DNA of 64,000 bases from Desulfuribacillus stibiiarsenatis (GTDB taxonomy: Bacteria > Bacillota > Bacilli > Desulfuribacillales > Desulfuribacillaceae): positions 62,001-126,000 of the forward strand of contig NZ_MJAT01000002.1 of NCBI RefSeq assembly GCF_001742305.1, written 5' to 3'. Positions 53,539 to 55,931 of this stretch are shown piece by piece. The notes beneath the pieces are model-generated. The model made no database searches and had not been told where the DNA came from. It saw only the letters and a list, made by a program, of their open reading frames with translations. How positions within the stretch are numbered: position 1 is the first letter of the stretch; each line of letters opens with the position of its first letter. A program made the translations under genes and the position numbers.

Positions 53539-54255
53539 CTACTTATTAGCGAAAAATGCTTTATACGCTTTTAACATATGTTCCATTACTTGTAGTCTAC
53601 CAGACTTCTTCTGCTCAAATGACACAACTTTCCAAGGTGCATTGCTCGTGTTCGTCTTATTTAGCATGTCTTGAATGGCCTTCTCATAGTCGTTCCATTT
53701 CCCACGATTTCTCCAGTCATCACCACTAAGCTTCCATTGTTTATATGAGTGGGTCTCACGGTCTTGAAACCGCTCTAATTGCTTATCTTTCGTAATATGT
53801 AGGAAATATTTTTGAATCATATATCCATTTTGAATTAGCTGTTTTTCAAACTCGTTGATTTCTTCATAGGCTCTTTCCCATTCTTTCGTTGTGCAATATC
53901 CTTCTATCCTCTCCACCAATACACGGCCATACCAGCTTCGGTCAAATATCCCCAGTTGCCCATACGTCGGCAAACGCAACCAAAAGCGTCTCATATAATG
54001 ATTCTTTTGCTCCGTTGGGGTTGGTGGACCGATTGGATGAACGTTGAACATCCTTGGATCCAGTTTTTCGGTAATGCGCTTAATCACTCCACCCTTACCC
54101 GCAGCGTCCCAGCCTTCAAACAACAATATTACTGGTACTTTTTCTTGAAACAGTTGAATTTGATACCTTAAAATCTCATATTGCAATTCGGAAAGGCGCT
54201 TCGTGTAATACTCATCATCCACACGTTCCATAAGGTTAACATCCGTTAGTTTCAT
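53539..54255 (-). CDS. Polyphosphate kinase 2 family protein
   Basis: A 238-residue P-loop kinase. FEGWDAAGKGGVIKR is Walker A, FDRSWYGRVLVER the Walker B/lid region. One-domain PPK2 enzymes transfer phosphate from polyphosphate to nucleoside mono- or diphosphates. It complements ppk1/ppx at 11-15 kb. It follows hgcB by 91 nt on the same strand and may share its transcript, though no functional link is known. Confidence 0.92.
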   Translation of the reverse strand: MKLTDVNLMERVDDEYYTKRLSELQYEILRYQIQLFQEKVPVILLFEGWDAAGKGGVIKRITEKLDPRMFNVHPIGPPTPTEQKNHYMRRFWLRLPTYGQLGIFDRSWYGRVLVERIEGYCTTKEWERAYEEINEFEKQLIQNGYMIQKYFLHITKDKQLERFQDRETHSYKQWKLSGDDWRNRGKWNDYEKAIQDMLNKTNTSNAPWKVVSFEQKKSGRLQVMEHMLKAYKAFFANK

Positions 54256-54346: not shown

Positions 54347-54610
54347 TTAACAACAATTAGGCCCACTTCCAGTGAACCAGCCTTTGATTACGGCATACGC
54401 TCAACCAACGCCCGACTCGACTTGTATTGCGCGTACAGGACAATTTTTATCACAAGCGCCACATTCGATGCAGTGATCCCTATACTCAACATATGCTTTT
54501 CTGTTTTGGATATTGATCACGCCATGGGGGCAGACCATTACACACAGCCCGCAACCAATACATTTGTCTACGTGAATCTCAATTTTTGCAACGTTTTTCA
54601 CATATTGCAT
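54347..54610 (-). CDS. hgcB: HgcB mercury-methylation ferredoxin, predicted selenoprotein
   Basis: Encodes 87 residues if TGA at 54401-54403 (codon 70) is read as selenocysteine. Two [4Fe-4S] motifs (CIGCGLCVMVCP at 17-28 and CIECGACDKNCP at 47-58) are followed by SGVG-U-AYAVIKGW and a C-terminal NCC. HgcB proteins are ferredoxins that reduce HgcA; they have a conserved Cys (Cys73 of Desulfovibrio ND132) after the second cluster and a terminal Cys pair, both important for methylation. Sec70 falls at the first, Cys86-Cys87 at the second. A SECIS-like hairpin lies at 54360-54378. Ordinary gene calling would stop at 69 residues. Follows hgcA by 79 nt. Confidence 0.8.
54360..54378 (-). other. Predicted SECIS element in hgcB
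   Basis: Downstream of the TGA, GGTTCAC and GTGGGCC form a 7-bp stem (two G-U pairs) around TGGAA. The loop starts 30 nt after TGA and has G at its second and third positions, within the spacing and loop rules for bacterial SECIS elements. Confidence 0.65.
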
Positions 54611-54689
54611 GACGTATCCCCCGCTCCTTATTTCATCCCAAATTTATATAAAAATAAGCATACAATTAAGTAAATTCAAATTTCGAAAT

Positions 54690-55841
54690 TTACAAGAGAA
54701 ACCCTAAAATCATAAGGACTATTGCGATGGCAGATGCAATAGCCATGGTCGGAACAGCAATTGTCGTTTCTTTTTTCACTCCTGATAGCGAAGTAAACGT
54801 TGTGCTCCCTGTAAAATTCATTGCTAAGAAGCTGATTATTGATGCCAACAAAAGCATGTTAGCAGCACCTACCGCGATCGATTGCTCGAAATGAAATACA
54901 TTAGCAAATGCAAACACTACCGCAGACCAAGATAATCCAAGAATGAGGGCTTTCACTGCAAACATCTGAAAGGGCAACACTGGTAGCAGCATAGGAAACG
55001 CTAATGTTCCAATCAATATAGCAATCAGATACGGTACTGTATTCATGAGTCCACTCTGCACCACTTGTATAATACTCGTATGATTCCCACCGAACCACTG
55101 TAGTAAGACAAAGAATATAATCACGTACGGTAAGTAATGAATCGCCATGAAAGTTTCGAGGGGCGCAACTGCCAAACGCTCTCTTAACGTAAAATTAACT
55201 CTTCGCATGTCTTCAGTGGCAACATTTTGATTGGATAAGAACATCGGAATATCCTTCGCATACACGGGTCCATAGATGACTTTAAATCCTGCGAACTTCG
55301 TAATCTCATGCGCAGTAATCCCTGGTGCTCCTAACTGTGGAACGATTATTGTGTTATGACTTACTAATTCCTTGATTTGATATTTTTGAATCCGGTAGAT
55401 GATTTCTTCTGTAGAAAATGTACCCTTTCCCGCAGCACACCAAACATTAACACCCTTTGTATCAATCACAAGCAACCATGTGTCAATACCGTCTAAGGAC
55501 ACCCTAACAATATCAATCGTCAATTTATAATTACATGTCACAAGCACAGGAGAATTGGCATCGGGATTGCCAATGGCATACAACCCCGGTGGAATCTTAA
55601 ATGTATCCCTAGCGATTCCAAGACGGGCCTTCAGATTCCAATAAGAATCTATCAGTCTTAACTCAGTACTTATCCTACGAATTGGACCTAAAGATGTTTC
55701 CACAGATCCTGTAATGGCATGTTGGATTCGCGCGTCTTCTACTATCTCTTCGATTTGATGAATCTTTTGAAACAGTCTTTCTTCTATACTAGAAGAACAT
55801 TTCTCTTCAATCACTCAGCAAGACTTCGGATTTCCGCCCAT
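54690..55841 (-). CDS. hgcA: HgcA mercury-methylation corrinoid protein, predicted selenoprotein
   Basis: The corrinoid-binding methyltransferase for Hg(II): a soluble domain with KGVNVWCAAGKGTF (the cap-helix motif, lower-axial-ligand Cys135), PGLYAIGNP and PQLGAPGITAHE, followed by five C-terminal membrane helices (about 230-250, 267-290, 294-316, 322-343, 360-383). The best start is ATG 55841, with AGGGGGTGG 7 nt upstream; from there codon 9 is TGA (55815-55817), giving MGGNPKSC-U-VIEEKC. The frame is otherwise open to 54690. The fallback start, GTG 55814, has no ribosome site. A SECIS-like hairpin follows the TGA. First gene of the hgcAB pair. Confidence 0.88.
55779..55797 (-). other. Predicted SECIS element in hgcA
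   Basis: After the TGA, TTCTTCT and AGAAGAA form a perfect 7-bp stem around AGTAT. The loop begins 25 nt after TGA and has G at position 2. Stem and loop lengths equal those of the hgcB element. Confidence 0.6.
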
Positions 55842-55931
55842 GACAATACCACCCCCTATCCATAAATCTTAATCTTATATTAGGATTAGCTAAATCATAC
55901 TAATAGTCTATTATCTCTGCAACAAAGTAGA

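Follow-up and report, generated by a model that had tools for sequence, protein, structure and literature searches.

A single stretch of 64,000 nucleotides from the Desulfuribacillus stibiiarsenatis genome, referred to here as the window, carries the two genes for mercury methylation, hgcA and hgcB. They lie on the minus strand, hgcB directly downstream of hgcA (hgcA 55841-54690; hgcB from 54610), and each reading frame contains one in-frame TGA. The features are as follows, with the basis for each in brackets.

55849-55856, minus strand: hgcA ribosome-binding site GGGGGTGG, before ATG 55841 (sequence)
54690-55841, minus strand: hgcA, a 383-residue frame from ATG 55841 through the TGA, with corrinoid domain, NVWCAAGK motif and membrane domain (NF040863 and sequence)
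55815-55817, minus strand: in-frame TGA of hgcA, a predicted selenocysteine (Sec) codon, MGGNPKSC-U, residue 9 (CU common to some 26 other hgcA loci)
55779-55797, minus strand: hgcA bSECIS-like hairpin UUCUUCUA-GUA-UAGAAGAA, apical loop about 25 nt past the UGA (hairpin search and recoding)
55425-55448, minus strand: HgcA cap-helix motif NVWCAAGK, with the Cys that ligates the corrinoid Co (translation)
54624-54629, minus strand: hgcB ribosome-binding site AAGGAG (sequence)
54350-54610, minus strand: hgcB, an 87-codon readthrough frame encoding a dicluster ferredoxin (translation and NF040864)
54401-54403, minus strand: in-frame TGA of hgcB, a predicted Sec codon, motif GVG-U, at the site equivalent to Cys73 of ND132 (81 other HgcBs have TGA at this codon, the remainder Cys)
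54360-54378, minus strand: hgcB bSECIS-like hairpin GGUUCACU-GGA-AGUGGGCC, apical loop 30 nt past the UGA, GG in the loop (covariation in 23 Sec-type genes, none in Cys-type)
54347-54349, minus strand: TAA stop of hgcB (translation)

The hgcB frame, 54610-54347, translates as MQYVKNVAKIEIHVDKCIGCGLCVMVCPHGVINIQNRKAYVEYRDHCIECGACDKNCPVRAIQVESGVG up to the TGA and as AYAVIKGWFTGSGPNCC from there to the TAA. A preliminary description of this DNA had a ferredoxin frame that stops at TGA 54401-54403 after SGVG and reopens to a TAA, had placed the TGA 13 residues beyond the final cluster Cys, at the Cys73 site of HgcB, and had the extension end in a vicinal Cys pair; translation bears out each of these points. 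Both CxxCxxCxxxCP cluster motifs are present (CIGCGLCVMVCP and CIECGACDKNCP), the TGA is residue 70, counted 13 residues past C57, and the C-terminus is PNCC-stop, with the Cys pair at residues 86-87. The site of the conserved Cys, about 12-13 residues past the second cluster motif, is thus filled by TGA (the Sec variant) and not by Cys. The alignment of the 87-residue readthrough product with the HgcB family, which the description had proposed as a check, gives 113.1 bits with the NCBIfam model NF040864 (cut-off 99) over profile positions 1-85 of 93, TGA included. Directly downstream of hgcB, at window positions 53539-54255 on the minus strand, is a gene that by eye is polyphosphate kinase 2-like.

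The preliminary description was correct about the hgcB TGA, left the minus strand unstated, and missed the second in-frame TGA, at 55817-55815 in the upstream hgcA. HgcA scores 397.3 bits with NF040863 (cut-off 275). Ordinary gene callers would begin hgcA with GTG 55814, a codon that no ribosome-binding site precedes; from ATG 55841, in the same frame as the ordinary call, the gene reads MGGNPKSC-TGA-VIEEK. Judged from the sequence, the true start is ATG 55841, upstream of GTG 55814, once the in-frame TGA is read through. Near the N-terminus many Cys-type HgcAs have Cys-Cys and others have C-TGA, and the CU motif recurs at some 26 other hgcA loci, Desulfobacterota among them, most of which also have a hairpin. 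An HgcA-like frame elsewhere (G486:C89:1854-2240) contains two in-frame TGA codons within the family match.

Hairpins downstream of the TGA codons

The hairpins were judged by the ordinary bSECIS description. At the gathering threshold Rfam has no match in the window, and the hairpins were therefore examined by covariation and recoding. The hgcB hairpin has 8 bp and spans 22-40 nt past the TGA. In the synonymous-recoding test, the window's two hairpins, each taken alone, give p of about 0.035 and 0.04; the hairpin case draws its strength from the whole gene set, not from these two alone.

For hgcB, the covariation set consists of 23 Sec-type sequences in a gap-free alignment, namely the non-Desulfobacteraceae set minus L085 and plus L046. 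In these genes 88% of the cells of the helix are paired, two-sided changes occur at 6 of the 8 pairs, compensatory cells number 16 versus 3.3 in shuffles (0/500), and the helix register beats every slid register. The loop sits about +30 past the UGA in essentially all non-Desulfobacteraceae Sec-type hgcB genes. Might the hairpin simply reflect the encoded peptide? The Cys-type control (n=16) encodes nearly the same peptide, KGWLTG(S/T)EP, yet over the same region it is 60.9% paired and has no covariation; because there is no excess pairing or covariation in these genes, the encoded peptide does not account for the hairpin. Sec-type hgcB has a mean best hairpin score of 17.5, against 7.4 in Cys-type genes and about 7 once codons are synonymously recoded. 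The bSECIS element that the preliminary description had suggested looking for is thus represented by a bSECIS-like hairpin, here and in relatives, that is absent from nearly all Cys-type HgcBs. One Cys-type HgcB, L038, retains a hairpin, UCACU-GGC-GGUGA at +30, and its sister L063 is Sec-type; the pair looks like a recent Sec/Cys switch.

The hgcB hairpin of the Desulfobacteraceae is placed differently, as UUAUCC-AGGUCU-GGAUAA with the loop at +17, and three Ile codons, ATT, ATC and ATA, are invariant in 58/58 genes as parts of it. The recoding test is weak per sequence in this family (4/59), since the amino acids themselves favour pairing, and for this putative element the invariance at synonymous sites is a stronger argument than recoding. 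The CU-type hgcA hairpins, examined at 29 loci, vary in sequence and position and have a mean score of 15.6 versus 7.0 when recoded; their bearers include CU-type hgcA of Desulfobacterota, with a GGCUCAGUUGAGCC-like stem, and a few loci (L048, L114, L065) have weak ones.

Relatives with TGA in hgcA or hgcB

The DNA pattern CPxxA(I/L/V)x(V/I)xxGVG-TGA, which leaves the sequence past the TGA unconstrained, was scanned over 84,980 species genomes. It returned 87 loci, 6 of them clearly unrelated and 81 HgcB-like with a conserved continuation. In most Bacillota the peptide past the TGA is U(A/T)YAI(I/L)KGWLTGSEP..C, in Desulfobacteraceae it is UAAYIIQVWIKGKENASCG..CC, and across the 81 the downstream peptide and the terminal Cys are mostly kept. 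The hgcB TGA observation is far beyond chance, because the same codon is TGA, with conserved downstream sequence and a covarying hairpin, in 81 HgcBs elsewhere. HgcB homologues sampled without restriction have either Cys or TGA at the Cys73-equivalent codon. In a phylum sample, HgcA was present in 32 of 398 genomes, and 5 of the 28 readable HgcBs had TGA. A scan of viral contigs for HgcA relatives found none.

Several of these loci have peculiarities of their own. At the 3' end of hgcB in L043 and L119 a second in-frame TGA (HCD-TGA-RKYKA) stands where the near relative L133 has its last Cys (HCDC-stop), and may be a stop or a second Sec. The hgcB tail of L088 has an extra TGA (ASC-TGA-DSGCC) at the Gly of its relatives, which may be a second Sec, a stop or an error. 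Within one short hgcB, Desulfobacteraceae such as L053, L055 and L062 apparently use UGA both as Sec, at GVG, and as the normal stop, which follows about 20-25 codons on, directly after Cys-Cys. The HgcB-like genes L051 and L114 (Oceanirhabdus seepicola, Hathewaya massiliensis) have the TGA and no terminal Cys-Cys, and may have another function.

In an HgcA tree of 96 rows, made by a quick method, the window's HgcA belongs to a group of 19 with 99% support; Sec-type hgcB accompanies 18 of these. The preliminary description would have been undermined had close relatives all ended at this stop; in 18 of the 19 the TGA is present and the hgcB frame continues, which makes a sequencing error an unreasonable explanation. 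Sec is found in both subunits in our own genome and in L043, L044, L059, L065, L082, L090, L093, L111, L114 and L125; in HgcB only in the Desulfobacteraceae, L045, L046, L102 and others; and in HgcA only in L142-L144, L146-L151, L153, L156, L170, L177-L179 and L048. The tree requires at least 7 changes of state for HgcB and at least 6 for HgcA, in which gains and losses of Sec are not separable because its root is not known. The differing hairpin positions fit Sec sites of independent origin.

Reading of the two UGA codons

Does the organism have the means to insert Sec? The preliminary description had named selA, selB, selC and selD as the genes to look for, and the genome, which is 99.86% complete, has them all: tRNA-Sec (selC) at 61 bits, with anticodon tca by ARAGORN, selA at 585.6 bits, selB at 411.1 bits, and two selD frames at 410.9 and 323.3 bits. 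The selD copies (L018 and L019, on contig C34 of this genome) have a single in-frame TGA apiece, the usual Sec-containing form of SelD. Within the window TGA terminates only 5 of 47 long frames, and these five, examined as candidates for further TGA-interrupted genes, have only short, unremarkable extensions; a global reassignment of UGA was considered and rejected, as TGA still ends those frames.

We consider it very probable that in the window's two-gene hgcA-hgcB operon one UGA per gene serves as a predicted Sec codon, with SelB recruited by a hairpin. Sequence itself shows both reading frames and their homology, the covarying hairpins, a full set of Sec genes, and relatives with TGA at these positions; that Sec is incorporated in the cell we infer. 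The Sec that the preliminary description had proposed at the hgcB TGA is thereby supported, by selABCD, TGA-type relatives and the covarying hairpin. In the mechanism we propose, the hairpin just downstream of each UGA would recruit SelB with Sec-tRNA(Sec); HgcA would gain an N-terminal Cys-Sec pair at residues 8-9, and in HgcB the strictly conserved Cys would be replaced by Sec, at residue 70. Sec70 may then stand in for Cys73 as a ligand that accepts or holds Hg(II) or CH3Hg+, with transfer in either direction between it and the corrinoid and flexible Cys-Cys tail. The Cys-Sec pair of HgcA may be another ligand for Hg or organomercury. On chemical grounds, an HgcB selenolate would be expected to bind Hg(II) more tightly in function. 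When selenium is short, the UGA would end translation, giving an HgcB that lacks the CC tail along with residue 70, and an HgcA aborted after 8 residues, so that HgcAB activity would depend on selenium.

It might be argued that hgcB is decaying, the TGA being a nonsense mutation or a sequencing error and the 69-residue ferredoxin a truncated, inactive remnant; an ordinary gene caller does stop the frame there. We find this exceedingly improbable, given the identical TGA in 81 other HgcBs that mostly keep the downstream peptide and terminal Cys, the covariation of the hgcB hairpin, an independent TGA in hgcA at the site of its Cys pair, and a complete Sec machinery in the genome. An open frame past the TGA would also be expected if the UGA were read through in some other way, by near-cognate Trp or by reassignment, with Trp or another residue at position 70 of HgcB. 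That TGA is an ordinary stop for 5/47 long frames in the window speaks against this, as does the presence of only Cys or TGA at the codon in the unrestricted sample of homologues, and the hairpin and selABCD point to Sec; such readthrough has, in our estimate, next to no chance of being the explanation.

A third alternative is that both products matter: the UGA would act as a switch governed by selenium, and the 69-residue ferredoxin formed when selenium is scarce would have an electron-transfer use of its own. The short form retains both cluster motifs, and UGA/Sec sites are generally inefficient. Cys-type orthologues, however, make only the full-length protein, and at low selenium HgcA would be lost altogether, its UGA being codon 9. 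We judge a two-product switch very unlikely.

A wider proposal, which we put forward tentatively, is that in this genome and in Alkaliphilus, Natronincola, Peptoclostridium, Anaeromonas and others, Sec in both subunits means that methylation proceeds via two selenolate sites gated by selenium supply, with HgcA stopping at codon 9 and HgcB losing its Hg-handling end when selenium is low; gain and loss of Sec, or its exchange with Cys, would have happened many times independently, with hairpins differently placed. Why does this matter? HgcAB makes methylmercury, and a survey built on standard gene calls will cut Sec-type HgcBs short, ahead of the essential residue, and will put the HgcA start in the wrong place. 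Should Sec be used, these anaerobes would be expected to need selenium for methylation, and such a dependence, if true, is a simple, testable connection of selenium with methylmercury, over and above the chemical binding of Hg by Se. With its many switches between Sec and Cys, the Cys73 site of HgcB also offers a natural experiment on the role of that residue.

Comparison with known systems

Selenoprotein forms of both subunits have been predicted before. As tabulated in PMC13188914, Haft & Gwadz 2023 (J Bacteriol 205:e00259-22) predicted Sec-HgcB (GVGU, NF040864, example WP_250697400.1) and Sec-HgcA (CU, NF040863, example WP_250697417.1), and PMC11588087, with reference to that work, names some homologues of hgcA and hgcB as possible selenoproteins. 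By that table, the published Sec-HgcB has the same family, Sec position, GVG-U motif and Cys-to-Sec logic as the window's HgcB, and the published Sec-HgcA has the N-terminal Cys-Sec motif of MGGNPKSC-U, with no difference seen. The two published examples probably also share one operon, as here, to judge from their close accession numbers. The window's hgcAB is therefore a further member of a published, computationally predicted class and not new in kind; relative to Haft & Gwadz 2023 as conveyed by the citing papers, what is added here is the hairpin covariation, the Cys-type controls and the tree. Our literature search found no experimental proof of Sec in HgcA or HgcB and nothing on hgcA in Desulfuribacillus, and a PDB sequence search returned no solved HgcAB structure, only corrinoid protein and ferredoxin relatives.

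The SAO (Sec-assisted organometallic) operon resembles the window in that it, too, groups several selenoproteins together in an operon for organometallic biochemistry (PMC13188914); its protein families differ from HgcAB, and none was seen adjoining hgcAB here. A further comparison is with the Cys-type HgcAB of Desulfovibrio (Pseudodesulfovibrio) ND132, which shares the corrinoid HgcA with NVWCAAGK and the dicluster ferredoxin HgcB with terminal Cys-Cys (PMC7305189). In ND132 HgcB, Cys73 is reported to be strictly conserved and essential, and Cys94 and Cys95 are jointly needed for full activity (PMC7305189). In the published HgcAB model the flexible Cys94/95 tail can reach Cys73, the proposed site to which this tail and the corrinoid hand over Hg(II) or CH3Hg+ (PMC7305189). 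ND132 has Cys at 73, and no hairpin is expected there, whereas the window has a predicted Sec at that site.
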